Of a DNA stretch of 64,000 nucleotides, positions 9,075 to 60,622 are shown piece after piece. The DNA is from Chloroflexota bacterium (GTDB lineage Bacteria; Chloroflexota; Dehalococcoidia; Bin125). The notes below the pieces were generated by a model. That model ran no database searches, was not told the origin of the DNA, and worked only from the letters and a program-made list of their open reading frames with translations. The stretch covers positions 1 through 64,000 of the forward strand of contig QGNQ01000001.1 in NCBI GenBank assembly GCA_003228175.2, given 5' to 3'. How positions within the stretch are numbered: the stretch's first letter is position 1; every line of letters begins with the position of its first letter. Position numbers and translations under genes: made by a program.

Positions 9075-9368
9075 CTAGACCTCGACGCGGTCCTTGAGGC
9101 CCTTGGCGGGCTTGAAGGCGACCACCTTCTTGGCGGCGATTTGAATCGTCGCGCCGGTAGCGGGGTTGCGACCCTCGCGCGCCTTGCGCTTGCGGGTCTC
9201 GAACTTGCCGAAGCCGGCAACCGAGACATCGCGATCGGCGTCGAGTTCGACGGCGATGATGCCTTTGCCGGACTCGGAGCTGAAGATCGACTCGACGACC
9301 TCCAGGGCCTTGGCCTGTGTCAGGTCCGTCTGCTTCGCCAGCTTCGCGGCCAGCTCGGTCTTGTTCAT
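9075..9368 (-). CDS. hup: HU-family nucleoid DNA-binding protein
   Basis: A 97-residue protein of standard HU length. It begins MNKTELAAKLAKQTDLTQAKA (helical dimerisation part), has GFGKFETRKRKAREGRNPATG (the beta-arm entry with the R-x-GRNP-x-TG signature) and ends VVAFKPAKGLKDRVEV. It binds and bends DNA without strong sequence preference. GAGAGGA lies about 8 bases before the ATG. It is probably transcribed on its own, given the hairpin downstream. Confidence 0.97.
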   Translation of the reverse strand: MNKTELAAKLAKQTDLTQAKALEVVESIFSSESGKGIIAVELDADRDVSVAGFGKFETRKRKAREGRNPATGATIQIAAKKVVAFKPAKGLKDRVEV

Positions 9369-9482
9369 GCGGGTGTCCTCTCGATCGGCCCTATCCGCCG
9401 GGCTTTTTCGGCGGTTCCAGCCGATTTCCAGTCACGATACGCGGCGCGCGGGCCGGGTCAAGCGCCGATGTCGTCCGCACGA

Positions 9483-9512
9483 CTGTCCGGTCCGCGTATA
9501 GCGGACCAGACA
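9483..9512. terminator. Long dyad upstream of HU
   Basis: GGTCCGC-GTATA-GCGGACC forms a perfect 7-bp stem, flanked outside by CTGTC and GACAG with small mismatches. It lies just past the stop (minus strand) of the kinase relic and about 115 bp upstream of HU. It may be that gene's old terminator or an HU operator. Confidence 0.35.
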
Positions 9513-9528
9513 GCGCCCGTGATTCGGC

Positions 9529-9650
9529 CTATTCACCCCGGATTAAGCGCTCCACTTCGGCGCGAGCGGGCATCGCTTCTTGCACGCCGGGCCGGGTCAC
9601 GGCCAGCGCCGCGGCCGCGTTGCCCAGCGCCACCGCGGCCGGCAGCGTCC
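9529..9650 (-). pseudogene. C-terminal relic of a PfkB/ribokinase-family kinase
   Basis: Read on the minus strand, the approximately 40 codons before the stop at 9529 give LPAAVALGNAAAALAVTRPG, then VQEAMPARAEVERLIRGE. This is the typical ribokinase-family C-terminal pattern (A-V-x-x-x-N-A-A-A-A-L-x-V-T-R-x-G ... P-x-R-x-E-V). Upstream of about 9650 the frame no longer resembles the kinase, and the catalytic GAGD region is absent. The rest of the gene has been lost. The identification rests on a short stretch. Confidence 0.45.
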
Positions 9651-9739
9651 TGGCGCCGGTCGCGGCTGCCGGGATCGCCGGTGTCCTGGTGCTGATGCTG
9701 GGCGCCAGCGCGCGCGTCGCGCTGCGTCGCCGGGCCTAG
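9645..9739 (+). pseudogene. Possible C-terminal relic of a membrane protein
   Basis: On the + strand, the last ~30 codons before TAG at 9737 read as a hydrophobic helix ending in a basic tail (GIAGVLVLMLGASARVALRRR). That is what the last helix of an inner-membrane protein looks like, and a strong hairpin follows. There is no credible coding upstream of about 9645, where the kinase relic on the other strand begins. Low-complexity high-GC sequence can mimic this, so the call is tentative. Confidence 0.25.
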
Positions 9740-9761
9740 TCCCGCACGATTCGGATCAACG

Positions 9762-9795
9762 GAGAAGGGCGGGGACGCAAGTCCCCGCCCTTCTC
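9762..9795. terminator. Strong 15-bp hairpin with GCAA loop
   Basis: Perfect stem GAGAAGGGCGGGGAC paired with its complement at 9781-9795, closing a GCAA (GNRA-type) tetraloop on the + strand. It sits between the + strand relic and the end of the SDR gene (stop at 9870, minus strand), so it may serve as a bidirectional terminator. No clear T-run is present on either side. Confidence 0.6.
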
Positions 9796-9869
9796 GTGTC
9801 TCCCCCGCCGGCCAACCTGAAGCGCCGAACAGATCCGACTCTGACCCCCCGAGTGAAGAAGCCCCAGAG

Positions 9870-10643
9870 TTAGAAAATCGAGAAGCCGCCGTCGATCTTG
9901 ATCACGTCGCCCGTGTGCCAGCGCGCGGCGTCGCTCATGAGGTACACGGCGATGGCGCCGAAGTCGTCCGGCGTCCCGTAGCGACGGAAGGGGATGCGCG
10001 GGATGACCGCCTGGTTGAACTTCTCGTTCTCGAACACGCGCTGCGTCATGGGCGTCTCCACCCAGCCCGGGATGACCGCGTTGGCGTTGATGTTGTATCG
10101 CGCCAGGCCAACGGCCAGGCCCAGCGTCATGGCGACGAGGCCGCCCTTCGTGGCGGCGTAGGCCTGCCCCTTGGGGGCGCCTTGAATCGCGGTGCCGCTG
10201 CTGGTCAGGATCAGGCTGCCGCCTTCCCCCTGATCGACCATCTGCTTACTGGCGGCGCGCAGCGTGAAGAAGGCGCCCGTGAGGTTGACGTCGATCACGC
10301 GTTGCCAGTCTTCAGTGGTGTGCTCGAAGAACGGCTTGTCGTTCTGATTGCCGATGCCCGCGTTCGCGAACAGCGCGTCGACGCGCCCATACTCCGCGAC
10401 GACCGCCGCGATCGAGTCGTTGACGGCGTGCTCATCGGAGACGTCGCATCGAATCGCCGAGGCGGAGGGGCTGATCTGCTGCAGCTCCGCCTGCGCGGCG
10501 GCGTTCTTGTCCGGGTTGGTGCCCCAGATGCTGACCTGCGCGCCGGCCTCCGCGACCGCCTTGGCGAAGCCCAGACCAATGCCGCTGTTGCCACCGGTGA
10601 TAACCGCGACCTTGCCCGTGAGATCGAATCCGTCGTATGCCAT
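9870..10643 (-). CDS. Short-chain dehydrogenase/reductase (SDR)
   Basis: A 257-residue classical SDR: an NAD(P)-dependent oxidoreductase of alcohol/ketone substrates. Cofactor motif TGGNSGIG is near residue 17, followed by NAG (ANAGIG), the catalytic Ser in LTSSGTAIQG, YAATK (catalytic Tyr and Lys), then PGWVETPM and the C-terminal DGGFSIF. The start has a strong AGGAGG site seven bases upstream. It is divergent from an enoyl-CoA hydratase, so a role in beta-oxidation-like chemistry is possible, but the substrate is unknown. Confidence 0.93.
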   Translation of the reverse strand: MAYDGFDLTGKVAVITGGNSGIGLGFAKAVAEAGAQVSIWGTNPDKNAAAQAELQQISPSASAIRCDVSDEHAVNDSIAAVVAEYGRVDALFANAGIGNQNDKPFFEHTTEDWQRVIDVNLTGAFFTLRAASKQMVDQGEGGSLILTSSGTAIQGAPKGQAYAATKGGLVAMTLGLAVGLARYNINANAVIPGWVETPMTQRVFENEKFNQAVIPRIPFRRYGTPDDFGAIAVYLMSDAARWHTGDVIKIDGGFSIF

Positions 10644-10865
10644 GTCATCCTCCTTCTGCGCCCGCCCCTTGGCTCCGGCGGGGCCGCGCCGTGCATTCGC
10701 CTCGCTGCGCAGTCTCGGGCAGACGCAGGCTGGGCGCCACGCAGAGGCGCGACGGGTGTCGGCGCCGGCGTCGTCAGGCGGGCACTGTTCCAGCCGCGGA
10801 GCGCTGGCTGTAGCCTTCGCATCGCGTTCGCGCCGCCGCGAGCGGGCGCTAGCAGGAGGTGCCGC

Positions 10866-11678
10866 ATGCCGGAAGAACGGGTGACGATTGAGGTGCGGGA
10901 CGGGGTCGCCGATGTGCGGCTCAACCGCCCGGAGAAGATGAACGCGCTGGACCCGGCGATGTTCGACGCCATCCGCGAGGCCGCGGCCTCGGTCTCCGCC
11001 GACGCGTCGATTCGCGCGGTGGTGCTCTCCGGCGCGGGACGGGCGTTCTGCGCCGGGCTCGACTTCCAATCCTTCCAGGCCATGGAGGGGCGGCCACCCC
11101 GCGAGAACACGGGCGACCTGTTGTCGAAGGGACCGCAGACGCGCGCCAACGCGGCGCAGTCGGTCGCCTGGGCCTGGCGCGAAGCGCCGATGCCCGTGAT
11201 CGCGGCGGTGCACGGGGTGGCGTTCGGCGGGGGCTTGCAGATCGCCCTCGGCGCCGACATCCGCTTCGTCGCGCCCGACGCGCGTCTCTCGATCATGGAG
11301 GGGCGCTGGGGGCTGGTGCCAGACATGGCCGGGACGCAGTTGCTGCGGCACGTGGCGCGCGAGGACTTCGTCAAGGAGCTGACCTACACGGCGCGAATCG
11401 TGCAGGGCGTGGAGGCGGTGGAGGTGGGGCTGGCGACGCACGTGTCGGAGGAGCCGCGGGAGGCCGCGCTGGCGCTCGCCCGAGAGATCGCGCAGAAGTC
11501 GCCGCACGCGGTGCGGGCGCAGAAGGCGCTGCTCAATCAATCGGTGGAGCTCGACGCGGCCACCGGGCTGGCGCTGGAGGCGTCGCTGCAAGCATCGTTG
11601 ATCGGGACACCGAACCAGCAGGAGGCAGTGCGTGCGAACCTGGAGAAGCGACCGGCGACCTACCAGGACCCGGGTTAG
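10866..11678 (+). CDS. Enoyl-CoA hydratase/isomerase (crotonase) family protein
   Basis: A 270-residue crotonase-fold enzyme. The oxyanion-hole motifs are present: SGAGRAFCAGLDFQSF near residue 60 and HGVAFGGGLQIALGADIRF near residue 115, followed by EGRWGLVPDMAGTQLL. The position usually held by the first hydratase Glu lies in IMEGRWGLVPD. AGGAGG precedes the ATG. It is followed after 6 bases by the MBL-fold hydrolase, so the two are probably co-transcribed. Substrate and exact reaction (hydratase, isomerase or hydrolase) are not determined. Confidence 0.9.
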   Translation: MPEERVTIEVRDGVADVRLNRPEKMNALDPAMFDAIREAAASVSADASIRAVVLSGAGRAFCAGLDFQSFQAMEGRPPRENTGDLLSKGPQTRANAAQSVAWAWREAPMPVIAAVHGVAFGGGLQIALGADIRFVAPDARLSIMEGRWGLVPDMAGTQLLRHVAREDFVKELTYTARIVQGVEAVEVGLATHVSEEPREAALALAREIAQKSPHAVRAQKALLNQSVELDAATGLALEASLQASLIGTPNQQEAVRANLEKRPATYQDPG

Positions 11679-11684
11679 ACCGGG

Positions 11685-12698
11685 ATGCCGAGTCGTGACT
11701 TCGACGAGTCGCTGACGCTGCCGGCCTCGCTCCAGGATGCCGGCATCCACCCGATCACGATGCCGATGCCGTTCGCGCTGCGACACGTGCACGCCTACGC
11801 GCTGGAGACCAACGACGGTTGGGCCCTGATCGACGCCGGCTTCCCCTCCAAGCAGGCGCTGGACATCTTCCGGACCGAGCTAACTCGAATTGTGGGCGAC
11901 CTGAGCCGCATCAACGCCGTCGTGGTCACCCACTTCCACCCCGATCACTCGGGCCTCGCGGGCTGGGTGCAGCGCGAGTCAGGGGCGCAGGTCTACATCC
12001 ACAAGCTGGACGCGGAGCGCCGCACGCAGATGCGGGACCGCGACCAGGAGTTGATCGACGGCAAGGGCAGCATCTTCGCGGAGAACCTCAACGACGGGCC
12101 CGGCCCGGACGAGCGTGTGTTCGATGTCTTCCGCAGCCAGATGGATGACATGGAGCTGCCGGAGACGGCCCCGACCTTGGTCGATGGCGACACGGAGATC
12201 GAAGTCGGGGGACGCGCCCTGCGACTGATCTGGACGCCCGGGCACACCCCCGGCCACCTCTGCGTCGCGGACCCGGCCGCGAATGTGCTGTTCAGTGGCG
12301 ACCACATTCTGGGTCGGATCACGCCGCACATCGGCCTCTGGACGGCGGACGGGACGAGCCCGCTGCACGAGTTTGAGGACTCGCTGCGCAAGGTCGAGGC
12401 GCTGGGCTTCGAGACGGTGCTGCCCGCCCATGAGGCGGTCGTGGAGCGACCGAACGAGCGCATCGGCGAGATTCTGGCGCACCACGTCGATCGCAAAGCG
12501 CAGGCGATCGAGGCCATCGAGTCGGGCGAATCGAACGTGTTGGGGATCGCGGCGCAGCTGTTCGCCAAGCGCTGGGACGTGCCGATGCAGCGGGCCTTCG
12601 CGATGGCGGAGACGCTGGCGCACTTGGAGGCGTTGGTCGTGGACGGGGCGCTGGCGCGAGAGGGCGTCGGAGCGGACGCGTCGTACCGGCTGGCCTGA
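11685..12698 (+). CDS. MBL-fold metallo-hydrolase
   Basis: A 337-residue metallo-beta-lactamase-fold hydrolase. The metal motif THFHPDHSG is near residue 86, further ligands are GHTPGH and SGDHIL, and a C-terminal helical extension (HHVDRKAQAIEAIESGESN) matches the LACTB2-like/winged-helix-tailed MBL group. Members act as thioesterases, ribonucleases or lactonases. The tight spacing to an enoyl-CoA hydratase favours a CoA-ester or lactone substrate (inference). Confidence 0.88.
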   Translation: MPSRDFDESLTLPASLQDAGIHPITMPMPFALRHVHAYALETNDGWALIDAGFPSKQALDIFRTELTRIVGDLSRINAVVVTHFHPDHSGLAGWVQRESGAQVYIHKLDAERRTQMRDRDQELIDGKGSIFAENLNDGPGPDERVFDVFRSQMDDMELPETAPTLVDGDTEIEVGGRALRLIWTPGHTPGHLCVADPAANVLFSGDHILGRITPHIGLWTADGTSPLHEFEDSLRKVEALGFETVLPAHEAVVERPNERIGEILAHHVDRKAQAIEAIESGESNVLGIAAQLFAKRWDVPMQRAFAMAETLAHLEALVVDGALAREGVGADASYRLA

Positions 12699-14900: not shown

Positions 14901-16103
14901 ATGGCGGCTCCGCTGGCAGGTATTCGGGTCGTGGAAGTCGCGAACTGGCTGGCGGCACCCAGCGCCGCGGCGATGATGCGCGACTTGGGCGCTGATGTGA
15001 TCAAGGTCGAGCCGCCCGACGGCGACGCCTACCGCGGCGTGCTGCAGGGCCTGGAGTTGGATCACAACTACCCCTTCGAGCTGGACAACCGCGGCAAGCG
15101 ATCGATCGCGCTGGCGCTCGACAAGCCGGGCGCGTCGGAACTCGTGCGCCGCTTGGCGGGCACGGCGGACATCTTCATCACCAATCTGGTGCAGCCGCGA
15201 CGGCAGCGCTTCGGCCTGACCGACGCCGATCTGCGCGCCGCCTTCCCGGGCCTGATCTACGTCTCCTTCTCCGGCTACGGCTCCGAGGGCCCCGACGCGG
15301 CGCGGGCCGGCTTCGACTACACGGCCTTCTGGGCGCGTTCCGGGATCTGGGCGCTGATGGGCGATGCGTCGGGCCCGCCCGCCCTCTCGCGCTCCGGCCA
15401 AGGCGACCACACCACGGCGATGAACTTGCTCGCCGCGACGCTGGTCGCGCTGCGACTCAAGGAGCAAACGGGCGAGGGGCAGACCGTGGAGGTGACGCTA
15501 CAGCGCACGGGGCTGTGGACGATCGGCGCGGACGTCTCGCAGGCGCTGGTCACGAAGCAGCAGCTCGACCGCTTCGACCGGCGGGAGATGCGCAACCCGC
15601 TGGCCGGCTCGTACGAGACCCGCGACGGTCGCTGGCTACTGCTGATGATGCCCGCCTCTGACAACTATTGGGCGCCGTTCTGCCGCATGGTGGGACGCGA
15701 GGAGTGGATCGAAGACCCGCAGTACGCCGATGTTCTGGCGCGCCGCGATCACGGAGTGGAACTGTCGCCGCTGGTGCAGGAGATCTTCCTCACCGACGAC
15801 CTGGCCGGCTGGCGCGAACGCCTCGACACGGCGGGCCTGATCTGGGGTCCGGGCGCGGAGCTGCCGGAGGTCGTGGAGGACCCGCAGCTGCGGGTCATGG
15901 GCGCCTTCGAGACCATCGAGCACCCAGACCCGGCCGTCGGCAGCTTCGAGACACTCGCGACGCCGTTCCGGATCACGGATGCGGACATCGCCGTGCGCGG
16001 ACCGGCGCCGGAGATCGGCCAGCACACCTACGAGGTGCTGGAGGAACTGGGCGTGACCACGGACGAGGTCGCGGAGCTGGCCCTGGCCGGAGTCTTGGGC
16101 TGA
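14901..16103 (+). CDS. Family III CoA-transferase (CaiB/BaiF)
   Basis: A 400-residue protein that begins MAAPLAGIRVVEVANWLAAP and continues GADVIKVEPPDGD, NRGKRSIAL, SGYGSEGPD and GEGQTVEVTLQ, the normal order for the formyl-CoA transferase/CaiB/AMACR family. The catalytic aspartate expected before the G-x-LAAL helix is present (GQGDHTTAMN, Asp169). It would transfer CoA between carboxylic acids, or racemise/dehydrate a CoA ester. The length is typical, and it shares a divergent region with nudC. Confidence 0.92.
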   Translation: MAAPLAGIRVVEVANWLAAPSAAAMMRDLGADVIKVEPPDGDAYRGVLQGLELDHNYPFELDNRGKRSIALALDKPGASELVRRLAGTADIFITNLVQPRRQRFGLTDADLRAAFPGLIYVSFSGYGSEGPDAARAGFDYTAFWARSGIWALMGDASGPPALSRSGQGDHTTAMNLLAATLVALRLKEQTGEGQTVEVTLQRTGLWTIGADVSQALVTKQQLDRFDRREMRNPLAGSYETRDGRWLLLMMPASDNYWAPFCRMVGREEWIEDPQYADVLARRDHGVELSPLVQEIFLTDDLAGWRERLDTAGLIWGPGAELPEVVEDPQLRVMGAFETIEHPDPAVGSFETLATPFRITDADIAVRGPAPEIGQHTYEVLEELGVTTDEVAELALAGVLG

Positions 16104-41717: not shown

Positions 41718-42755
41718 TTAGGGCAGGCGCGGCGCAACCTCGTCCGCGAAGAGCCGCATCGAGGCCAGCACCCGCTCGTGCGGGATGCGCCCACCGAAGG
41801 CGAACCAGGCCATCAGGTGGCCGAAGCCGTGGCAGTCATGCAGGGCCGTCAGCCGCTCCACGACGCGGTCCGGATCGCCTACGGCGCTGTCGCTCGTGAT
41901 CGACTCCTCGAACGTGATCGAGCCGAAACGCTCGGCAAGCGGGACGCGTCGGGTGGAGCCGTCCGGATTGCCCGTCAGTCCGGCCCGAATCACGCGCGCG
42001 ACCTCCCGGTAGTAGCTGAGGTGCGATGCCTCCGCGTCGCGTTCGGCCAGCTCGTTCGATTCGGCGACGTGGACGGGCGCCATCAGCGCGATGTCTCCGG
42101 CCGGGGCGTTGGGCCGGGCGGATCGGTAACGTCGGCTGCGGGCGCTGATCTGATCGGGTGTCGCCGTGAGGGTCGACATCATCACGGGGATGTCGAGCGC
42201 GATCGCGGTCTCCACCGATTCGTCGCTGTTCGCCGCCATCAACAGCGGCGGGTGCGGTTGCTGCAACGGCTTCGGCACCACGTTGACGTTCTCATAGCTG
42301 AAGTGCGCGCCCGTAAAGCTGAACGGCTCCGGGCCCCAGGCCCGGCGTACGATCTCCAGCGACTCCTCGAAGCGGGACTGCCGCTCATCCAGCGCACGGC
42401 CGAAGCCGGCGTAGTGCTGCGGGATGCTGCCGCGTCCCACACCGAGCCGCAAGCGGCCCCGGCTGAGCTGGTCCAGCATCGCCGTCTCTTCCGCCAGGCG
42501 CAGGGGGTCGTGCAGGGGCAGCAGCGAGACCGCCGTGCCGATGCCGATACGTTGGGTCCGTTGCGTAGCGGCGGCGGCGACCAGGAACGGCGACGGCATG
42601 ACGCCGTAGTTGGCCTCGAAGTGCAGCTCCGCCAGCCAGGCCACCTGGAAACCAAGGCGGTCGGCCAGTTCGATCTGCCGCAGCGTCTCCTCATAGCGGT
42701 CGTCCGCGCGCTGCTCGGGCCAGACGGGGAGTTGGAAGAAGAGTCCGATCTCCAT
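41718..42755 (-). CDS. LLM-class (bacterial luciferase-like) monooxygenase
   Basis: A 345-residue protein beginning MEIGLFFQLPVW, with FQVAWLAELHF, IGIGTAVSLLPLHDPLRLAEE, LDQLSRGRLRLGVGRGSIP and PHPPLLMAANSDESVETA. The ALLPLxxPLRxAE and GVGRGxxP blocks are typical of the FMN-dependent luciferase/alkane-monooxygenase-like subgroup rather than the F420 one. The ATG at 42755 is preferred to one 8 codons upstream because the barrel starts there. Next to carboxyltransferase and CoA-transferase genes, it may oxygenate a hydrophobic substrate before CoA activation (inference). Confidence 0.9.
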   Translation of the reverse strand: MEIGLFFQLPVWPEQRADDRYEETLRQIELADRLGFQVAWLAELHFEANYGVMPSPFLVAAAATQRTQRIGIGTAVSLLPLHDPLRLAEETAMLDQLSRGRLRLGVGRGSIPQHYAGFGRALDERQSRFEESLEIVRRAWGPEPFSFTGAHFSYENVNVVPKPLQQPHPPLLMAANSDESVETAIALDIPVMMSTLTATPDQISARSRRYRSARPNAPAGDIALMAPVHVAESNELAERDAEASHLSYYREVARVIRAGLTGNPDGSTRRVPLAERFGSITFEESITSDSAVGDPDRVVERLTALHDCHGFGHLMAWFAFGGRIPHERVLASMRLFADEVAPRLP

Positions 42756-42814
42756 GCGCCGGAGTCTAGACGCCCGCACCGGCAGACATCGGCGTCGCGA
42801 CGCTCGGCCCGCCG

Positions 42815-44392
42815 CTAGGGCCGGACCCCCACCTTCGACACCATGCCCAGCTGCGTCGACAGGGTCTCGTACGCTAGCTCCAGGAAGCGGTGTACGTAGG
42901 ACCGCGTCTGTCGCGGGTCGATGATGTCCTCGATCCCGAACGCCTCCGCTGTGCGGAAGGGGTTGCGGAACTGCAGCAGGTGATCCTCGATCTCTTTGCG
43001 CCGCGCGTCCGGATCGGGGGCCGCCTCGATCTCCCGCTTGTAGGCCGCCGCAACGCCGCCCTCGATCGGGATCGACCCCCAGTCGCCCGAGGGCCAGCCC
43101 ACGCGGTAGTTGATCGAGCCGACGTTGGCCGTCGCCTGTCCCGCCATGCCGAAGTTCTTGCGCGTGATCACGGTGAACACCGGCACCTTCACCAGGTAGG
43201 TGGCCCAGTAGGCGCGCATGCCGTGCCGCAGCGTGCCCGTGCGCTCCGCCTGCACGCCCAGCATGAAGCCGGGCACGTCCGCCAGGAAGACGATGGGGAT
43301 GTGGAAGTGATCGCAGAGCTCCACGAAGTGCCCCTGCTTATCGGCAGAGGTGGCCGTCATCGCGCCCGCCAGCATTTTCGGGTTGTTCGCCACGATGCCC
43401 ACCGTGTAGCCGCCCACCCGCGCCAAGATCGTGTGCACCGAGGTCGCGAACTCCGGCTGCACCTCGAAGTAGTCACCGTCATCGACGATCAACTCCACCA
43501 CGCGACGCATGTTGTAAGCGCGGGTCCGGGCCCGCGGCACAATCGAGAGCAGCTCTTCCTCTTCGCGGTCGGCCGGGTCGTTGCTCGGCAGGACCGGCGG
43601 CTGCTGGTAGACGTTCTGCGGGAAGTAGCTGAGGAACTTCTGCATCTGCGCGATCGCGTCAAGCTCGTCGCTGGCCCGATTATCGATCGCGCCGGAGGCC
43701 ATCACGTGCACGTCGGGGCCGCCCAACTCGTCCTTCGTGACGTCCGCGCCCAGCGCGCGCTTGACCAGCGGCGGCCCGCCCGCGAACAGCGCGCCCTGGG
43801 GCGTCATCACCACGAAGTGCCCCAGCATTGCGTGCGCCGCGACACCGCCCGCCGTCGCGCCCGAGACGGCGTAGACCACGGGGACCTCCTGGCCGGCGCG
43901 AATGTCGGGGCCAAAGACATCGAAGGAGCTGGGCAGGTGCCCGTGGCCGTCGCCCTCGGCCGCGACGTTCGCCCCGGCGCCCTCGTGGAACAGCATCAGC
44001 GGCACGCGATACTCCCGCGCCATGTCGGCCAGGAACAGGTTCTTGAAGCGCTCCTGTGTGCTGATGTCGGCGGCGCCGCCACCGACCGTGAAGTCGTTGC
44101 CGCCCACGACCACCCGTCGCCCGCCGACCGTCGCCAGCCCGCCGATGTAGGGCAGCGGCGTGAAGTCGAGGAACGTGCCGTTGTCGTAGCTGCCGTACCC
44201 CGCCAGGCCACCAATCTCGTGAAAGCTGCCCGGGTCGACGAGCGCGTCGATGCGCTCCCGTACGGTCAGCTTGCCAAGCGCGTGCTGCTTATCGACGCGT
44301 TCTTTGCCGCCCAGCTTCTTCGCCAGCGTGCGCCGATGATTGAGCTCGTCGACTTCCGGCTGCCAATTCGTGGGTGCTGCGCTGTCGGACAT
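42815..44392 (-). CDS. Acyl-CoA carboxylase, carboxyltransferase (beta) subunit
   Basis: A 525-residue crotonase-fold carboxyltransferase of the propionyl/methylmalonyl-CoA type. N-terminal half: KLTVRERIDALVDPGSFHEI, GGNDFTVGGGAADI, GATAGGVAAHAMLGHFVVMT. C-terminal half: YTVGIVANNPKMLAGAMTA, FLADVPGFMLGVQAERTG, NFGMAGQATANVGS. It transfers CO2 from biotin to an acyl-CoA. No biotin carboxylase or carrier gene is adjacent; the required partner may be one encoded elsewhere. It is divergent (about 220 bp) from the CoA-transferase operon. Confidence 0.93.
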   Translation of the reverse strand: MSDSAAPTNWQPEVDELNHRRTLAKKLGGKERVDKQHALGKLTVRERIDALVDPGSFHEIGGLAGYGSYDNGTFLDFTPLPYIGGLATVGGRRVVVGGNDFTVGGGAADISTQERFKNLFLADMAREYRVPLMLFHEGAGANVAAEGDGHGHLPSSFDVFGPDIRAGQEVPVVYAVSGATAGGVAAHAMLGHFVVMTPQGALFAGGPPLVKRALGADVTKDELGGPDVHVMASGAIDNRASDELDAIAQMQKFLSYFPQNVYQQPPVLPSNDPADREEEELLSIVPRARTRAYNMRRVVELIVDDGDYFEVQPEFATSVHTILARVGGYTVGIVANNPKMLAGAMTATSADKQGHFVELCDHFHIPIVFLADVPGFMLGVQAERTGTLRHGMRAYWATYLVKVPVFTVITRKNFGMAGQATANVGSINYRVGWPSGDWGSIPIEGGVAAAYKREIEAAPDPDARRKEIEDHLLQFRNPFRTAEAFGIEDIIDPRQTRSYVHRFLELAYETLSTQLGMVSKVGVRP

Positions 44393-44612
44393 GGGGACTC
44401 CGTTCGCTGGGGGAGGGGTGGGGTGGGGCCAGAGCCGTTAGGGTCTCACGCCGCGGCCCCTCGCCCAGCGTCCAGTACGCGATGTTGACCCCGTCGTCGG
44501 TGCGGCAGTACTGGATCGGCGGCGCTTCGCTTATCCGGTGAGTCTAGGGCACGCCCGCCCAATTGACCCGACTCCCCTCCGCCGTGAGCATGACGACCGA
44601 AGTGGAGTCCCC

Positions 44613-45824
44613 ATGCCGCTCGCCTTGGATGCTGTCCGTGTGCTCGACCTCAGCGACAACGTCGCCGGGGCGTACGCGTCCAAGCTCTTCGCCATGGCGG
44701 GCGCGGACGTGGTCGTCGTCGAGCCGCCGGGCGGCAGTCCCCTGCGGCAGGCCCCGCCCCTGATTCGTACGCCGCAGCCCGGCGCCGCGCCCCAGAGCGC
44801 CGCCTTTGCCTACCTGCACGCCTACAAGCGCGGCATCGGCCTGGAGGTGGAGACGCCCGACGGTCGCGCCGCCCTGCAGCGTCTCGCCGGCAGCGCCGAC
44901 CTCGTGATCAGCTCCTGCAACGGCGACCCCGACGCCGCTCTGGCCCGCGACGCCCAGCTCCGCGACGCGAACCCCCGGCTCGTGCACTGCCTCGTCAGTG
45001 GTTACGGCCTGACCGGCCCCTACCGGCGATTCGTCAGCAGCGACCTGACCGACTGGGCGGCCGGCGGCTACCTGGCGATCACGGGCTTCCCCGATCGCGA
45101 GCCCTTGCAGGGCGGCGGGCCCTGGTGCGGCTACGCGACGGGGCTGACCGCCGCGATCGGCGCCCTCTCGGCGATGACCGGCGCGCGACAGTCGGGCCGC
45201 GGCCAGCTCGTCGATATCGGCGCCATGGAGGCCATGGCGTCGGCCCACCAGTGGTCGCTCGTGCTGTTCAGCCACCTGGGATTCGTCAAGCAGCGCGGCG
45301 GCAACCGGCATCTGGAGTCGCACCATCCCATGGGTCTGCAGCAGGTCAAAGACGGCTGGGTGGTGCTGGGCACGGCGACGCAGGCGCAGTACGAGGCGAT
45401 GTGCATCGCCATGGACAAGCCGGAGTTGATCGTCGATGAGCGCTATCTGAGCGGTGGTCTGCGGATCGATCGCGCGGACGACTTCGACGCCCAGATCGCG
45501 CCTTGGCTGCAAGCGCGCACCCGGGAGCAGGCAGTGGCGGAAATGCAGGCCGCGCGGGTGCCCTGCGGCAAAGTGCTGGCCTTGGACGAGACGCTCGTCG
45601 ACGCCCAACTGGAGGCGCGCGCCTTCTGGGTCACGCCCGAGCGCTTCGGCATGGACGCGAAGATGCCCGGCGTCGCCGTCCGCATCGGTGGGCAGGCGCC
45701 CGCGTTTCGCGAAGCCCCGGCCTACGGCGCCGATACCCGGGCGCTGCTGCGGGAGGCCGGGCTGGCAGAGCCGGAGATCGATCGGCTGGTCGCGTCCAAG
45801 GTCGCGCTGGAGGCGGCATCATGA
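44613..45824 (+). CDS. Family III CoA-transferase-like subunit lacking the catalytic Asp
   Basis: A 403-residue CaiB/BaiF-fold protein: VRVLDLSDNVAGAYASKLF, GADVVVVEPPGG, YKRGIGLEVET, SGYGLTGPYRRF, GRGQLVDIGAMEAM. At the position of the catalytic Asp (five residues before the helix leading into the G-x-L-x-A/M segment) the sequence is PWCGYATGLTAAIGAL, so Asp is Gly173. It overlaps the next gene by ATGA, and that partner keeps the Asp. The pair resembles the two halves of the 850-residue protein at 48691. A two-subunit precedent is BbsEF (benzylsuccinate CoA-transferase). ATG 44613 is chosen at the start of the fold. Confidence 0.85.
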   Translation: MPLALDAVRVLDLSDNVAGAYASKLFAMAGADVVVVEPPGGSPLRQAPPLIRTPQPGAAPQSAAFAYLHAYKRGIGLEVETPDGRAALQRLAGSADLVISSCNGDPDAALARDAQLRDANPRLVHCLVSGYGLTGPYRRFVSSDLTDWAAGGYLAITGFPDREPLQGGGPWCGYATGLTAAIGALSAMTGARQSGRGQLVDIGAMEAMASAHQWSLVLFSHLGFVKQRGGNRHLESHHPMGLQQVKDGWVVLGTATQAQYEAMCIAMDKPELIVDERYLSGGLRIDRADDFDAQIAPWLQARTREQAVAEMQAARVPCGKVLALDETLVDAQLEARAFWVTPERFGMDAKMPGVAVRIGGQAPAFREAPAYGADTRALLREAGLAEPEIDRLVASKVALEAAS

Positions 45825-47158
45825 CGGGCGTGCTCGACGGGATTCGCGCGATCGAGTTCGGCATGGCCTGGGCCGGCCCCCTGGCGATGCGCTTCCTGGG
45901 CGACCTGGGCGCCGACGTGATCAAGATCGAGCGTCGTGACGACCGTGGCGCCGGGCTCGGCGGCGGCAGCGAGGCGGTCGCGCGCGCAGAGCGGGACGAA
46001 TGGGAGTGGGGCCGCCTCCCGGGTCCCACCTTCCGCGCCGGCGTCTACCCCAATGCGGACCCAGGCGAGCGGCCTTGGAACCGCGCCGGCACCTTCAACA
46101 AGCTGCATCGCAACAAGCGCGCCCTCTGCATGGATCTGAAGACGCCCGCCGGCTGGGACGCCTTCGAGCGCCTCGTGCGCTCCGCCGACATCCTCTTCGA
46201 CAACTTCAGCCCACGCGGTGTGCTCAGCCTCGGCATCGATGCGGCCGCGATGCACGCCCTCAACCCGCGGCTGATCCGCGTCTCGATGTCCGGCTACGGC
46301 GCGACGGGCCCGGACCGCAACAACGTCTCCTACGGGCCGATTCTGGAGGGCGCATCGGGCCTGGTCTCCGCGACCGGGTACCCCGATGGCGGCCCGATCA
46401 AAGAGGGGCACGCCTACCCCGACCCGATCGGCGGGCTGCACGGCGCATTCGGCATTCTGGCCGCCCTCTGGGAGCGCGAGCGCACGGGCCTCGGCACCAC
46501 CATCGAGATCTCCCAGCTCGAAACCTACGCGGCGATCGGGGGGGAGTTACTGCTCCAGACCTCGGTCGAGGGTGCGCCCGCGCCTCGCGGCAATCGTTCC
46601 CGGCGCTACGCACCGCAGGGCGTCTATCGCTGCGCCGCCGATCCCGGGATCGGCAATCCGGACATCGATCGGGACGACGCCTGGCTCGCGATCACGATCC
46701 GCTCCGACACCGACTGGGCCGCGCTGGTCGAGGAGATTGGCGCGGCGGAACTGCGAGACCCCAGCTATGCGGCCGTCGACGGTCGTCGCGCCGCACAGGA
46801 CGCCATCGATGCGGCCATCGGCGGGTGGACCCGCGACGGCGACAAGCACGCCCTGGCGGCGCGCCTGCAGGTCCGCGGCATCGCCGCCGCCGCCGTCATG
46901 ACGAACAAGGACCTAGTCGAGGATCCCCAGCTCAACGACCGCGGCCTGATCGTGGAGTGGGACCAGCCGGAGGTGGGGCCGCGTCGCTACGCGGGCTTCC
47001 CGATCCACTTCTCGGAGTGGGCGCCGCCCGAAATGCGACCGACGCCCGGGCTGGGCCAGGACAACCAGGAGATCCTGCGCGAGCTCGGCTTCGACGATGG
47101 CGAGATCGCGCAGATGCAGTCGGACGGCGTCATCGCCACCACACCCACGCCCAGCTAG
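45821..47158 (+). CDS. Family III CoA-transferase, catalytic subunit of a coupled pair
   Basis: A 445-residue CaiB/BaiF protein: LDGIRAIEFGMAWAGPLAM, LGDLGADVIKIERRD, FNKLHRNKRALCMDLKTP, SGYGATGPDRN. The catalytic Asp is in AYPDPIGGLHGAFGILAAL (Asp201). A Gly/Arg-rich stretch of about 35 residues inserted after the first strand (near residues 45-80) is unusual. The GNRSRRYAPQGVYRC block matches GNRSRRFAPHGLFPG in the C-terminal half of the 850-residue fusion downstream. Its start codon overlaps the stop of the Asp-less partner, giving a probable heteromer. Confidence 0.9.
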   Translation: MTGVLDGIRAIEFGMAWAGPLAMRFLGDLGADVIKIERRDDRGAGLGGGSEAVARAERDEWEWGRLPGPTFRAGVYPNADPGERPWNRAGTFNKLHRNKRALCMDLKTPAGWDAFERLVRSADILFDNFSPRGVLSLGIDAAAMHALNPRLIRVSMSGYGATGPDRNNVSYGPILEGASGLVSATGYPDGGPIKEGHAYPDPIGGLHGAFGILAALWERERTGLGTTIEISQLETYAAIGGELLLQTSVEGAPAPRGNRSRRYAPQGVYRCAADPGIGNPDIDRDDAWLAITIRSDTDWAALVEEIGAAELRDPSYAAVDGRRAAQDAIDAAIGGWTRDGDKHALAARLQVRGIAAAAVMTNKDLVEDPQLNDRGLIVEWDQPEVGPRRYAGFPIHFSEWAPPEMRPTPGLGQDNQEILRELGFDDGEIAQMQSDGVIATTPTPS

Positions 47159-47319
47159 CGGAGTTGGGGTCTCGTCCCGCCGGCTGCGACACGGCCGCCC
47201 AGCGGTCCAGCAGGTCGTCCAGATAGCGACGCCGCTCCGGGCTGAACGGCGCATCCGCCAGCGCCCGTCGCACAACGATCGCCCCAGCGACTAGCATCCG
47301 TCGCACGACAGGAGGCCCC

Positions 47320-48612
47320 ATGCCCGGAGCGCTCGACGGAATCAAGGTGCTGGAGTTCTCGCAGCTGATCGCCGGCCCGGTGACCGGCCTCAACCTGGCC
47401 GACCTGGGCGCGGAGGTCATCAAGCTGGAGCCACCCACGGGCGACACAGCCCGCGCCATCGGCGCCTTCCTCCCCCACGAGAGCAAGCTCTTTCACGCGC
47501 TCAATCGGGGCAAGCGCAGCGTCGTCATCAACGCCCACACGCCGCCGGGCCGCGACCTGATCCATCGCCTGGTCCCTTCCTTCGATGTCTTCCTGATCAA
47601 TGCGCGTCCCGGGGCTGCGCTGCGCCTGGGCATGGACTACGGCGCCCTGCGACCGCTGCGGCCCGACCTCATCTACCTGGAGAACACGGGCTTCGGGGAG
47701 GCCGGACCCAGCGCCGACCGGCCCGCGACGGACCTGCTCGCCCAGGCCTACAGCGGCCTCATCGTGGGCTTCGGCAAGGTCGACGACGCCGGCGCTCCGA
47801 CCACAATCACCAACACGGCGCCGCTGGACTACGCGACGGGGGTGAGTGGCGCACTGGCGGTCTGCGCGGCGCTGTTTCATCGGGAGCGGACGGGTCAGGG
47901 GCAGCGGGTCGTGACCAACCTGCTCTCCACGGCGATGGCCTTCCAGAGCCCCTCGGTCGCGGAGCTTCCGGTCGTCGATGCGATCGTGCGCGAGCCCATG
48001 CTCGCGAAGGTGCTGGCCGTGCGCGACGCGGGCGGGACCTACCCAGAGATGCTGCAGGCCCGGCAGGAGGCGTCGCATCAGCTGGGCGCCGCGACGTTCC
48101 TGTACTACGGCGGTTACAACACCAAGGACGGCGCCATCGTCCTGGGCTCGGCGACGGCCGCGACGCGCGCCCAGATCCGCACGGCGCTGGGCATCGATGA
48201 CGACCCCACCGCCGACCCGCAGTTCAACGCGCTCGATTCGGCCAACGACCCCATCGTCGACGCAATGAAGGCGCGCCTCCGGGCGCTCTTCCTGTCGCGC
48301 ACCACAGCCGACTGGATGACGGCGCTGGACGCCGCGGATGCGCCCGCGGCGGCGGTGAATCTGCCGGAGCAGGTGTCGCGCGACCCCCAGGTAGAGGCGG
48401 CGGGCCTGATGATCGATCTGGAGCATCCGCTGACTGGGCCGGAGCGCATGGTCGGTTCGCAGATCAGTATGTCGGCCACCAGCACTGGCGCGGCGCGACC
48501 GTCGCCCGCGTTGGATGCGGACACGGATGCCTTCCTGGCCGAGGCCGGCTTGCCCCCGGACGAGATCGCGGCCCTGCGCGAGTCCGGCGTCACGGGCATC
48601 CCCGCCGACTGA
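47320..48612 (+). CDS. Family III CoA-transferase (CaiB/BaiF)
   Basis: A 430-residue protein: LDGIKVLEFSQLIAGPVTGL, LGAEVIKLEPPTGD, NRGKRSVVINAHTP, NTGFGEAGPSADRP. The catalytic Asp is present in TAPLDYATGVSGALAV (Asp170). A C-terminal region with ERMVGSQISMSA fits family length. It is a conventional single-domain enzyme. It follows the coupled pair after 161 bp in the same direction, so it may share their transcript; 78 bp separate it from the fusion gene. Confidence 0.92.
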   Translation: MPGALDGIKVLEFSQLIAGPVTGLNLADLGAEVIKLEPPTGDTARAIGAFLPHESKLFHALNRGKRSVVINAHTPPGRDLIHRLVPSFDVFLINARPGAALRLGMDYGALRPLRPDLIYLENTGFGEAGPSADRPATDLLAQAYSGLIVGFGKVDDAGAPTTITNTAPLDYATGVSGALAVCAALFHRERTGQGQRVVTNLLSTAMAFQSPSVAELPVVDAIVREPMLAKVLAVRDAGGTYPEMLQARQEASHQLGAATFLYYGGYNTKDGAIVLGSATAATRAQIRTALGIDDDPTADPQFNALDSANDPIVDAMKARLRALFLSRTTADWMTALDAADAPAAAVNLPEQVSRDPQVEAAGLMIDLEHPLTGPERMVGSQISMSATSTGAARPSPALDADTDAFLAEAGLPPDEIAALRESGVTGIPAD

Positions 48613-48690
48613 GTGCGCTGCCCGTCGGCAGGCGAAGGATGAACCCTCGCTCTCCGGGGTGTAGCCTCCGACGCCGGAGGTCCGACGCTT

Positions 48691-51243
48691 ATGCCCGACG
48701 CAGCAACCGCCCACATCGATGATTCCTTCCCCAACGGCGCATTCCCGGACGGCCCCCTGTCCGACGTCACGATCCTTGACCTCAGCGACGAGGCGACGGT
48801 GCAGGGCGCGCGCATGCTGGCCGAGCTCGGCGCCGACGTGGTGCGCGTGGAGGACAGCGCTGGCGACGCCGTGCGCTCGCGTCCGCCCTACCTGGCCGGC
48901 CCCGCCGGTCGCCCCCCTGGTGACGAAGATGGGGATGTCGAGCGGTCATTGGCCCACCTGTTATTCAACGGCGGCAAGCGCTCCCTGGCGCTCGATCTGG
49001 AGCGACGCGCGTCCTGGGGGGTGATCGCCCGGCTCTTGCCGGCGGTCGATGTCGTGATTGGGCCGCTGAACGTGCCCCAGGCCGGGCGCTCCTTCTTCGA
49101 CGACCTGCGCGCCGCCGGCGCCGCCGGCCCCGCCTTCGTCGAGACGATCTTCCGGCGCGGCGGCCCGGACGGCATCGCCACGGACCACGTCGCCACCGAC
49201 CTGATCGCGATGGCCGCCGGCGGGCACATCACCCTCAACGGCCAGACGGGCGAGCCGCCGCACTACCCGGCCGGGCAGCTCGCCTACCGGCAGGCCTCAA
49301 TGACCGCCGCCGAGGCGGCCATCGCCCTGCTGCGCGCCGCCCGGATCGGCCACCCCGGTGGCCACGTCGTGGTGTCCCTGCAAGAGGCGGTCAACCTGAC
49401 GACGCTCCAGACCGCCAACGCCAACTACTGGCACTGGCGCGGGGAGGTGCCCAGCCGGCACCGCGCGATCTCCAGCGGCGCCGCCTACCGCAGTCGCGAC
49501 GGCAAGTGGACCTCGTTCACCGTGCATCCGCCCAACTGGTTCAAGTTCACCGACTGGGTGGAGCAGACGATCGGCGATACCACCCTGCGCGGTCCTCAGT
49601 GGGAGAACATGCAGTACCGCGCCGACCACACCAAGGACGCGGTCGGCATCGTGGAACGGCTCTGCGCCGCCATCGATCAGGCGGATCTCTGCCGCGAAGG
49701 ACAGGCCCGGGGCCTGCTCGTGATGCCCGTCAACGACGTGCCGGACCTCGCCGTCAACGAGCACCTCAACGCGCGCCACTTCTTCCACGACATCGAAGAC
49801 CCCATCGTCGACGCAACGCTGCGCCTCCCGCGCACACCCTTCCTGTCCGACCGCTGGCAGAGCCCGACGCGTCGCGCCCCCGCCCTGGGCGAGCACACGA
49901 GCGAGGCGCTGGCCGGCCTGGGCGGACTCAGCGTCGCCGAGATCGAGGCGCTGTTCGAGGACGGGATCGCCAGCGGCATGCACCCCCCGGAGGACGCCTC
50001 GTTGCCCAAGCAACGCTCGCGAGTGGCGTCGCCCACGGCCGGCGCCAACGCCGATCCCCGGCAGCCGCTGGCCGGGGTCCGCGTGGTCGACTTCACCTGG
50101 GCGATCGCGGGCACCCTCTGCACCCGCCTGCTGGCCGACCTCGGCGCCGACGTGATCAAGCTGGAGTCCGACTACCGCACGGACCCGATTCGCTACATCG
50201 GTGTGCAACCCAGCGACGAGATGAGCTACGACACGAACGGCCAATTCAACGACGTCAACGCCAACAAGCGCGCGGTCACGCTGAACCTCAACTCGCCCCA
50301 GGGCATGGCCGCCGCGCGCGATCTGCTGGCCACCGCGGATGTCGTGACGTCCAACTACACGCCGGACCGGCTCGACAAGTGGGGCATCGGCTACGAGGGC
50401 CTGTCCGCCATCAAGCCCGATGTGATCCTGGCCAATATGGCCGTGATGGGGACCTTCGGGCCGCACAAGGACTGGCGCTCCTACGGCAACGGCATTGTCG
50501 CGATGTCGGGCTTGGCGGCCCTGACCGGCCTCCCAGACACGCAGCCCTTGGGCCTGGGCACCTTGCACACGGATTTCACCGTGCCGTACTACGGCGCCGC
50601 CCTGATCATCTCCGCCCTGCTGCAGCGCGACCGCACCGGCCACGGGCAGTCCCTGGAGCTCTCCCAGTTCGAGTCGGCGCTGCACCTGCTCGACACCGAG
50701 CTGGTCGAGTACCTCAACAACGGGGTCGCGCCGCAGCGGCTGGGCAACCGATCGCGGCGTTTCGCCCCGCACGGGCTCTTCCCCGGCGCCGCCACCGACA
50801 CCTGGGTCGCGGTCGTCTGCCGGGACGACGCCGATTGGGCGCGGCTGCTGCAAGTGATCGATCGACCGGACCTGGCCGCAGTCAGCGACCGCTGGGCCCA
50901 GGAGGACCGCATTGAGGAGGCGCTGGCGGCCTGGACGGCGGGACGCGACCACTGGACCGCCGCCGCCGTCCTCCAGGCCGCCGGTGTCCCCGCCAGCCCC
51001 GTCGAGACGCTCGAGGATCTGCTCACCCGCGACGCGGCCATGCGAGCCGATTACCGCGAGCTGGATCTGGAGATCGGCGTCACCGCGATGGTCCAGGAGG
51101 AGCCGATCCTCTGGAACGGCGAACGACTGCGGCTGCATCGGGCGCCCAAGTGGGGCGAGCACACTATCGAAGTCCTGCAGGGCGAGCTGGGCTTCAGCGA
51201 CGAGCGCATCGCGGAGCTGGCCGCCGACAACGCGCTCTGGTGA
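48691..51243 (+). CDS. Fused double-domain family III CoA-transferase
   Basis: An 850-residue protein made of two complete CaiB/BaiF domains. N-terminal domain (about 20-410): VTILDLSDEATVQGARMLAE, GADVVRVED, GGKRSLALDLE; the catalytic Asp position is Tyr199 (GQLAYRQASMTAAEAA). C-terminal domain (about 455-850): LAGVRVVDFTWAIAGTLCTR, LGADVIKLESD, ANKRAVTLNLNSP, and Asp628 in LHTDFTVPYYGAALI. So one half is catalytic and the other is not, as in the separately encoded pair at 44613-47158. Normal members are ~400-residue homodimers with interlocked chains; a fused chain could form a pseudo-dimer. Confidence 0.9.
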   Translation: MPDAATAHIDDSFPNGAFPDGPLSDVTILDLSDEATVQGARMLAELGADVVRVEDSAGDAVRSRPPYLAGPAGRPPGDEDGDVERSLAHLLFNGGKRSLALDLERRASWGVIARLLPAVDVVIGPLNVPQAGRSFFDDLRAAGAAGPAFVETIFRRGGPDGIATDHVATDLIAMAAGGHITLNGQTGEPPHYPAGQLAYRQASMTAAEAAIALLRAARIGHPGGHVVVSLQEAVNLTTLQTANANYWHWRGEVPSRHRAISSGAAYRSRDGKWTSFTVHPPNWFKFTDWVEQTIGDTTLRGPQWENMQYRADHTKDAVGIVERLCAAIDQADLCREGQARGLLVMPVNDVPDLAVNEHLNARHFFHDIEDPIVDATLRLPRTPFLSDRWQSPTRRAPALGEHTSEALAGLGGLSVAEIEALFEDGIASGMHPPEDASLPKQRSRVASPTAGANADPRQPLAGVRVVDFTWAIAGTLCTRLLADLGADVIKLESDYRTDPIRYIGVQPSDEMSYDTNGQFNDVNANKRAVTLNLNSPQGMAAARDLLATADVVTSNYTPDRLDKWGIGYEGLSAIKPDVILANMAVMGTFGPHKDWRSYGNGIVAMSGLAALTGLPDTQPLGLGTLHTDFTVPYYGAALIISALLQRDRTGHGQSLELSQFESALHLLDTELVEYLNNGVAPQRLGNRSRRFAPHGLFPGAATDTWVAVVCRDDADWARLLQVIDRPDLAAVSDRWAQEDRIEEALAAWTAGRDHWTAAAVLQAAGVPASPVETLEDLLTRDAAMRADYRELDLEIGVTAMVQEEPILWNGERLRLHRAPKWGEHTIEVLQGELGFSDERIAELAADNALW

Positions 51244-57084: not shown

Positions 57085-60000
57085 CTACCAGGTGTCGATA
57101 TTCGGTCGCTTCTTCTCGGTGCGTGGCGCCGGGGCGGGCATGGCGCGCAGCGCGTTGCTGATCCAAACGCGACTGTCAGCCGGGTCGATCACATCGTCCA
57201 CTTCGAAGAACGAGGCAGTGCTGATCGCCTTACCGTGGGTGTAGGCCTTGGCCACCATGGACTCGTACTTTTCGCGACGCTCGTCCACATCTTCGATCGC
57301 CGCCAGCTCTTTGCGGTAGCCCAGCTTGATCTGCCCCTCCAGCCCCATCCCACCGAACTCCGCCGTAGGGAACGTCACGGTGAAGAACGGCGCCCGCGCG
57401 CCGCCGCCCACCATCGCCGCCGCGCCCAGTCCGTAGGACTTGCGCACGACAATCGAGAAGATCGGCACGCTCAGGTTCGCGCCAATGTTGAACAGGCGGC
57501 AGCAGTGCCGGACCAGCGCGGTCTTCTCCACCTCGGGGCCCACCAGCATCCCGGGCGTGTCGACCAGGCTGAGGACGGGGATGTCGAACGCGTCGCACAG
57601 TTGTAGGAAGCGCGCACCCTTGTCGGAGCCGTCGCTGTCGATCGCCCCGGCCAGATGCCCCGGGTTATTGGCCATGACCCCCAGCGGACGCCCCTCCACG
57701 CGGATCAACGCGGTGATCATCCCGGCCCCAAAGCCGCGCCGGATCTCCAGCACCGATCCCACATCCGCGATCCCCTCGATCACCTGTCGCATGTCGTACA
57801 TGCGCAACCGGTTCTCCGGCACAACGTGGCGCAGTGCCCGCGCGTCCGGGGCCTCCCAGTCGCTCAGCGGGCCCTGGAAGTACGAGAGGTACTGCTTCGC
57901 CGCCGCCACAGCGGCCTCTTCATCCGCGACCGCGATGTCTACCACCCCGTTCGCCACCTGCACCTCCATCGGCCCCACCTCTTCCGGCCGGAAGACGCCC
58001 AGGCCCCCGCCTTCGATCATCGCCGGGCCGCCCATGCCAATCGTCGAGCCCTCCGTGGCGATCACGACATCACAACAGCCCAGGATCGCCGCGTTGCCCG
58101 CGAAGCAACGACCGTTCGTGATCCCGATCATCGGGACCAGGCCGCTGAGCTGGGACCAGAGCGTGAAGGCCCGCACGTCCAGGCCGGCGGGCGTAAAGCT
58201 GTCGCTGTCACCCGGGCGGCCACCGCCGCCCTCGGCAAAGAAGACCACGGGCAGCCGCCACTTCTCGGCCAGCTCAAACATGCGGTCCTTCTTGTAGTGG
58301 TTCTTCATGCCCTGCGTGCCGGCCAGCACCGTGTAGTCGTAGGACAAGACCATCGTGCGGGCCGCGTCGTCCGGGAAGTGGCCGCCGTTGACCCGGCCAA
58401 TGCCGGCCACCATGCCGTCGGCGGGGGTCTCGGTGATCAACTCGTCCAGCGGGGCCCGCAGCCGCCGCCCGGCGACAACGAGCGCGCCGTATTCCACGAA
58501 GGAGTCCGCATCCACCAGGTCCGCCAGGTTCTCCCGCACGGTCCGAAAGCCGCGCGCGTGTCGCTTCGCGATGGCCTCCTCGCGGTATTCATCGCGGGTC
58601 AGATTGTGCCGGTCGTAGACCTCCTGGAGGTCCGGGCGGATGCGGTCCAGATCGACCGCCTCCTCTTGTGGTCCGCCACCTTCGCCCACATCCGCCTCTT
58701 CAATGAAGACCAGCGCATGCCCGTCGAAGATCGTGTCCCCAGGAGAGACGCCGACGGCGCGCACGTAGCCGCTGCGGTCGGCGGCGATCACGTGCTCCAT
58801 CTTCATCGCTTCCATGATCACGACCTGCTGACCGGCATGGACGATGTCGCCCTCCGTGACCAGAACGCTGACCACCGTCCCCTGCATCGGCGCCAGGACC
58901 GGCAGCGACCCCTCAGGCCCCGCCACCTCTCGTCGCTGCGGCCTGTTCGTCGAGGTCGGGCCCAAATCGGCCGCGTCGGCCGTCTCGTTCTGGCCGTGCG
59001 CGAGGACGGCGAGCGGGTCCGTGCTGTCGATGCGGGCGCCGGCGAAGCCCGCCCCGGTGGGTCCGGCGGGGGCAACGCTCGCGACGAATCGATCGCTGCT
59101 CGCCGGCGCCTCGTCCCCCACCAGATCGTCCAGATGGTCCTCCACGAAACGGGTGTAGACCCGCCCCGCCGCGACATCCGGGTGGGCGAGTAGCCGCTGC
59201 AGGAAGGGGATGTTCGTGCCGACGCCCTCAATCTGGAACTCGCTGAGCGCCCGCACCGCGCGTCTCACCACGCGCGAGAAGTCGCCGTCGCGCGAGTGCA
59301 CGATCACTTTGGCCAGCAGGGAGTCGAAGGCGGGGCTCGTCGTGTAGCCCACGTACCCGAACGTATCGACGCGCACGCCGGGACCGGTGGGCGGGGCGAA
59401 CGCGCTCAGCGCGCCGCCTTGGGGGTGCGTTTCGCCCGTCGGGGTGATCGTTTCCATGTTGACGCGCGCTTGGATCGCATAGCCGCTGGGCGGGCCGACC
59501 TCCGCCTGCGAGAGGCGCAACTCGTCGAAGGACTCGCCCCCGGCCAGGCGCAGCTGGATCTGCACGAGGTCCAGGCCGGTCACCGCCTCCGTGACGGTGT
59601 GCTCGAACTGCAGACGGGCGTTGGCCTCAATAAAGGCGAAGACCTGACTGCCCTCCGCCGCGTCGACGAGGAACTCGAAGGTGCCCAGGCTCTGGTAGCT
59701 GGCGCTGCGCGCCAGGCGGACGGCCGCGTCGATGATCTGGTCGCGCAGCCCCGGCGCAAGGTTGGGCGCCGGGGCGAACTCCATCACCTTCTGGAAGCGA
59801 CGCTGGATGCTGCACTCGCGTTCGCCCAACTGCAGGATGCCGCCACGACCGTCGCCCACCACTTGCACCTCAATATGGCGCTCCCGCGGGACGTACTGCT
59901 CCAAGTACAGGTCGTCGTTCCCGAAGGCCGCCGCCGCCTCGGAGCGGCACCGCTGCGAAGGCAGCGTCGATCTCGTCGCTCTGGAAGACCGCACGCGTGC

Positions 60001-60502
60001 CGCGGCCGCCGCCGCCCGCGACCGCCTTGATGATCACCGCGGCGCCCGCCCCCAGGCTGTCGAAAAACTCGTGCGCATCGGCCGGACTGGCCGCGTGCTC
60101 CGTGCCCGGCAGCACGGGGATATCGCTGCGCAGCGCCGCCCCGCGCGCGGCCACCTTGTTGCCGAACAGTTCCAGCTGGTCCACGGTGGGCCCAACGAAC
60201 AGGACGCCACGATCCGCGCAGCGGCGCGCCAGCTCCGGGTTCTCCGAGAGGAAGCCGTAACCGGGATGCAGGGCGTCGCAGCCGCTGGATTCAGCCGCAG
60301 CCACGATCTCCGCGATGTCCAGATACGCCGACGGCCCACTGCCACTCAGCGCCACGACCTGATCGGCGTGCTTCGTGTGCAACGACTGTGCGTCGTCCTG
60401 GGAGTGGACGGCGACCGTCTCGATGCCCAAGTCCGTCGCGGCCCGGAGGATGCGGATGCCGATCTCGCCGCGGTTGGCGACGAGCAAGCGATTCAGTGTC
60501 AT
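57085..60502 (-). CDS. Single-chain acyl-CoA carboxylase (BC-BCCP-CT), one-base frameshift
   Basis: With one base removed near 59953 the gene encodes about 1,138 residues. Biotin carboxylase: LLVANRGEIGIRILRAATDL, HPGYGFLSENPE, AVAGGGGRGT, FIEANARLQFEHTVTE. Biotin carrier: MQGTVVSVLVTEGDIVHAGQ and EAMKMEHV. Carboxyltransferase: MVLSYDYTVLAGTQGMKNHY, FFAEGGGGRPGD, LGVMANNPGHLAGAIDSDG and LVDTPGMLVGPEVEK. All three activities on one chain match single-chain long-chain acyl-CoA carboxylases. At the break, FAAVPLRG in one frame is replaced by ARCRSEAAAAFGNDD in the other; similarity on both sides is intact, so a recent indel or assembly error is likely. Confidence 0.88.
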
Positions 60503-60622
60503 GGCGTCCCTGCCCTGCACAAGTCAGATACAGGGATCGTAGTGGGCAAACGGGATAAGCGGCGTTAGGGCGCCCCCGACGTTCCGGCCCCGGCCCGACT
60601 GCCCCCAGCGCCCAACGACGGC

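Follow-up and report, generated by a model that had tools for sequence, protein, structure and literature searches.

Introduction

BbsEF is the single solved two-subunit CoA-transferase of family III (CaiB/BaiF family). Its two subunits are homologous, with BbsE carrying a Tyr and BbsF the Asp residue D178 at the catalytic position. A second published strand comprises the two-domain CoA-transferases of the PtmU4 and DddD type, in which the domains are arranged in tandem and a conserved Asp lies in the C-terminal one; 2,401 proteins of this kind were known in 2017 (PMC6006322), and this large group is mostly uncharacterized. The genes described here join both strands. On the other hand, Frc, YfdW, CaiB and SUGCT resemble the F part in fold, catalytic Asp and interlocked dimer architecture, but, unlike the units in question, they consist of two identical chains with an Asp in each.

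A further precedent is the expansion of this family in SAR202 bacteria. The sections of that account considered here describe many CaiB/BaiF paralogues in SAR202 genomes, for a subset of which DddD is the best characterized match, and propose an ATP-free activation of carboxylic acids derived from oxidative catabolism; those sections draw no distinction between halves with and without the Asp or between fused and split pairs (PMC5395668). BbsEF, the two-domain enzymes of the DddD and PtmU4 type and the SAR202 expansion have already been published and the novelty of our data is modest. What looks fresh is to see E-F fusions and split pairs of the BbsEF type joined in a single co-evolving branch.

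CoA-transferase genes of the window

The analyzed DNA, hereafter called the window, is a stretch of 64,000 nucleotides from a Chloroflexota bacterium. Between positions 44613 and 51243 it contains four genes on the forward strand whose products gave full-length matches to the PF02515 profile (272-462 bits at a cut-off of 23.3). The first gene (44613..45824) encodes an E-type, i.e. Asp-less, subunit of 403 amino acids in which Gly173 replaces the catalytic Asp (PF02515, 6e-81). It overlaps by four bases (ATGA), in a different frame, with the gene of its F-type, catalytic partner (45821..47158), a protein of 445 amino acids with Asp201 (7e-89). After a gap of 161 bases, a single-domain CaiB/BaiF CoA-transferase follows (47320..48612; 430 amino acids, Asp170), assigned by PF02515 and the alignment. 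It is located outside the E and F clades described below and would be of the ordinary homodimer type. Another 78 bases separate it from a fused E-F CoA-transferase of 850 amino acids (48691..51243) with two PF02515 stretches, an E half at approximately 17-425 (Tyr199), a linker at 425-453 and an F half at approximately 457-850 (Asp628). A preliminary description of the locus had counted six CaiB/BaiF domains. This number is reached only if another single-domain gene with the catalytic Asp at 14901..16103 (forward strand, PF02515) is included, while the run itself holds five.

The catalytic column was inspected in an alignment of the window proteins with BbsE, BbsF, 4ed9 and YfdW. The coordinates and the four residues given previously for the coupled genes and the fusion proved to be correct. 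Asp is present in the products of 45821 and 47320 and in the C-terminal half of the fusion (HTDFTVPY). It is absent from the product of 44613 (GGPWCGYATGL) and from the N-terminal half of the fusion (AYRQAS), each of which has an Asp-bearing partner. At the same column, BbsE was found to possess Tyr and BbsF Asp178. The coupled genes show the BbsEF-type arrangement of adjoining homologous Asp-less and Asp-bearing subunits in the order E-F, and the fusion shows the tandem PF02515 domains with a conserved C-terminal Asp that characterize two-domain type III enzymes (PMC6006322), to which it is likened by description. A block of the type GNRSRR-AP had also been used to link the fusion halves to their separate counterparts. 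To some extent the block is common to the whole family, with GN..AP being present in 4ed9 too, but its GN is strongly F-type (91% versus 20% at the Asn column).

Phylogeny of the E and F parts

A first tree was calculated with IQ-TREE from 63 rows. With the exception of both halves of one fusion (C8), the E parts together with BbsE and the F parts together with BbsF each formed one clade (100/100 in both cases), as had been predicted for Asp-less and Asp-bearing halves. Ordinary CaiB/BaiF proteins, YfdW and 4ed9 were placed outside both clades. The halves of fusion 48691 grouped with the separate counterparts and not with each other, in agreement with the proposed heteromeric lineage in which an Asp-bearing partner is matched with an Asp-less one, as separate chains or in fused form; the citation of BbsEF as its precedent was appropriate too. 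Neither of the two observations named in the preliminary description as contrary to such a lineage was made. In the alignment of the window proteins, no Asp or Glu was found near Gly173 or Tyr199 that could represent a relocated catalytic residue, and constraining the two halves of fusion 48691 as sisters cost 169 log units and was rejected (p-AU 1e-91).

By contrast, the notion of a single pair that became fused was not borne out, because the local pair and the local fusion belong to different sub-branches. The pair 44613/45821 is nearest to two other fusions of the same genome (C3:116643 and C61:12000), while fusion 48691 is nearest to the fusions C70 and C66 and to a homologue from a Dehalococcoidia bacterium. 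Descent of the fusion from the pair was rejected, as each is nearer to other genes than to its neighbour. Neither is a recent version of the other.

A scan of named genomes, Chloroflexota genomes and plasmids yielded 61 E/F units, retrieved with E or fusion queries and classified by profiles seeded in the genome of the window; in the contig scan, single-domain relatives swamp the matches beyond the first thirty or so loci. The units originate from Chloroflexota, Alpha-, Beta- and Deltaproteobacteria, Actinomycetota, Bacillota and others. In the 18 fusions among them, E without exception precedes F; of the 43 split units, 37 show the same order. Split pairs in the order F-E (L113, L116, L212 and, in the genome of the window, C1:99216-101947) have in common a motif of the type GWGYSY-D at the catalytic Asp and possibly constitute a sub-lineage.

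Combined with the units of the genome of the window and BbsEF, the sample gave a set of 80 units. In the corresponding tree, E and F again formed one clade each, the C8 fusion excepted, and at least eleven changes between the fused and split formats were required on either of the two trees. The distances in the two trees were correlated (r 0.75, against at most 0.22 in 2,000 permutations) and the nearest neighbour was the same for 53 of 79 units, a correlation that is also expected from co-inherited neighbours without contact. Repeated fusion and splitting amounts to a natural experiment on the contribution that a homologous, catalytically dead subunit makes to an enzyme, and this co-evolving branch may merit a short comparative study.

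The C8 fusion (frame 9396-11783, L056) comprises 796 residues, the two columns being occupied by Leu and Asp. Its assignment to the E/F branch was rejected since it lies outside both clades on long branches. Relatives with 42% identity were detected on Sphingomonas, Embleya and Mycolicibacterium replicons, and it probably represents a second, independent two-domain family.

BbsEF itself groups with a pair from a Variovorax plasmid; the window genes are relatives at the level of the branch, not orthologues. On plasmid 3 of Variovorax sp. SRS16 (L071), a single operon contains an E-F fusion as well as a split E/F pair, along with genes for a thiolase, an OB-fold protein, an enoyl-CoA hydratase and a MaoC protein. 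This operon resembles a benzylsuccinate-type beta-oxidation cluster, and the side-by-side placement of fusion and split pair is the same as in the window.

Residue patterns and predicted structures

In the set of 80 units, Asp occupied the catalytic column in 80 of 80 F parts, in 28 of 28 unpaired single-domain proteins and in 8 of 80 E parts. The E parts with Asp are scattered, requiring about six changes on the tree; loss of the Asp in E is not absolute. Otherwise, E varies widely at this position (Y, Q, G, L, S, E, P and others). Among further columns, N99 has been lost from E but not from F or the single-domain proteins, F retains N230 and P237 close to the glycine-rich loop whereas E varies there, and P39 and G41 are kept in E and single-domain proteins and lost from F. 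Such a complementary loss of columns would be the pattern expected of two subunits with one common working site.

It is improbable, on the other hand, that the E parts are themselves catalytic, by means of another residue or in another CoA-ester reaction (racemase, lyase or hydrolase-like), giving each unit two different active sites. General family residues have been preserved in E (Lys70 in 99%, Arg45 in 97% and Gly41 in 99%), some E units possess the Asp, and DddD exemplifies a two-domain member with an added lyase step (PMC6006322). However, the column residue varies more than one that had taken over catalysis should, E has lost N99, N230 and P237 along with further columns that F retains, and neither Gly173 nor Tyr199 has an acidic residue close by. 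Moreover, the PDB entry 9fol is entitled as BbsEF with a D178-CoA adduct; by its numbering this D178 belongs to BbsF and it aligns with Asp628.

A model of fusion 48691, built on 13 sequences, reached a pLDDT of 85 and a pTM of 0.90, with low confidence for the linker 425-453. Its best solved matches were the F chains of BbsEF (9fn0; TM 0.91 on target), followed by the E chain (0.81), and the separate halves specifically matched 9fn0_A (BbsE, 4e-33) and 9fn0_B (BbsF, 9e-63) in the PDB. The predicted halves match chains of interlocked enzymes. The product of 44613 modelled alone showed good local confidence, but its lobes were arranged unlike those of solved chains (rmsd about 21 Å, TM 0.5). 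This poor fit, compared to the good fit of the fusion, would be expected if E needs a partner, the lone model being uninformative on the dimer.

From the sequences, residues, clades, co-divergence and predicted fold we infer the assembly, the single active site per unit, the role of E and the substrates. Two homologous chains, or the two halves of one chain, would interlock to a dimer-like unit with a single working active site. The acyl-anhydride and Asp-CoA thioester intermediates would form at the Asp of the F part. E, whose own Asp was presumably lost (Gly, Tyr, His, Ser or others), would act as an obligatory structural partner and probably also line one side of the substrate pocket. Fusion, which arose or was lost many times, would fix the ratio at 1:1. 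The CoA donor would most likely be succinyl-CoA or a similar compound, and the acceptors a variety of carboxylic acids made in oxidative catabolism. As a whole, we regard it as probable that the pair and fusion 48691 are different members of one E:F heteromeric branch of family III CoA-transferases.

It is conceivable that BbsEF-type pairs and most E-F two-domain fusions even make up one old heteromeric system spread over many phyla, consisting of a pseudo-enzyme E and a catalytic F, repeatedly fused and split and much multiplied in some Chloroflexota, with a changeable E tuning the substrate range. Taken in all its parts, this wider proposal is tentative and falls somewhat short of being probable.

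Conservation of the pair and the fusion

The pair was found in 14 relatives belonging to another genus of the same family, where the E genes are 50-54% identical. All 14 possess two genes with a short overlap of varied sequence, and Ser, Thr or Gly, never Asp, occurs at position 173. Homologues of the fusion were detected in 16 other genomes; they have kept Asp628 and carry Tyr or His at position 199. Identity to the fusion amounts to 79% for a homologue in the same genus and approximately 50% in other genera. Due to this conservation across the relatives of both pair and fusion, the pattern of residues represents a stable character, neither a mutation nor a sequencing fault.

The assumption that the E gene is merely a decaying duplicate, with F being an ordinary homodimer and coupling or fusion incidental, appears very unlikely. 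E indeed diverges faster than F and has longer end branches, and for three E genes of the wide sample (L224, L225, L226) no F was detected within several kb. The statement that every Asp-less unit has a nearby F is therefore nearly but not wholly true, and the partner of these three, if any, must be located elsewhere in the genome. However, the E genes are intact in the 14 relatives with their overlap retained, the E branch extends over many phyla, and F is almost always accompanied by an adjoining or fused E. Furthermore, P39 and G41 have disappeared from F though homodimeric single-domain proteins and E have kept them. That a sequencing or assembly frameshift has cut one fusion gene into the split pair, as an overlap of only four bases in different frames might suggest, can practically be dismissed, since the two genes are separate in the relatives too, where their short overlaps differ in sequence, and 43 of the 61 units elsewhere are split as well.

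E/F units across the genome

The genome containing the window (2.45 Mb, 85% complete) gave 66 matches in a profile search with PF02515. Like the related SAR202 genomes, as far as described in the sections of that account considered here (PMC5395668), it harbors many CaiB/BaiF paralogues. Thirteen two-domain fusions, two of them truncated at contig ends, and seven adjacent pairs were identified. The E partner is Asp-less in 19 of these 20 units, whereas the F partner is Asp-bearing in all 20, and the remaining unpaired full-length domains possess the Asp without exception. Every E partner adjoins, or is fused to, an F. Halves of E/F units account for about 40 of the approximately 60 domains, which refines the picture of a SAR202-like expansion. 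For annotation, it follows that an Asp-less CaiB/BaiF gene should be interpreted jointly with the adjacent gene or second domain that bears the Asp.

Some loci deviate. In the C14 fusion (C14:23545-26106, L068), which also counts among the eight E parts with Asp, the N-terminal E half carries this residue despite its position inside the Asp-less clade. An F-type domain without a partner sits at the end of contig C34. On C40, CaiB/BaiF fragments lie in several frames at about 770-1391 and 9144-10226 (L064), one with an internal TAA; they are decaying or misassembled copies.

Genetic neighbourhood

Upstream of the run, the genes for an acyl-CoA carboxylase carboxyltransferase subunit (42815..44392; PF01039, 4e-100) and a luciferase-like monooxygenase (41718..42779; PF00296, 1e-61) are located on the reverse strand. 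A promoter scan of the divergent intergenic region between the carboxyltransferase gene and the CoA-transferase run (44393..44612) revealed no sigma-70-like promoter. Further neighbours are an E2-like acyltransferase and a hydrolase, and acyl-CoA dehydrogenases are encoded farther off. Unlike BbsEF, the window genes have no benzylsuccinate (bbs) operon nearby and include a fused form, and a context related to sulfur transfer (PtmU4) or DMSP cleavage (DddD) is likewise lacking. By analogy, the neighbours fit a role in activating carboxylic acids of oxidative catabolism without ATP. An acyl-CoA carboxylase run composed of biotin carboxylase, biotin carrier and carboxyltransferase domains lies at 57085-60520 on the reverse strand. 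It exhibits a frame change within the ATP-binding domain, profile positions 2-68 being matched in one frame and 68-210 in the next, which reflects either a pseudogene or an assembly error.
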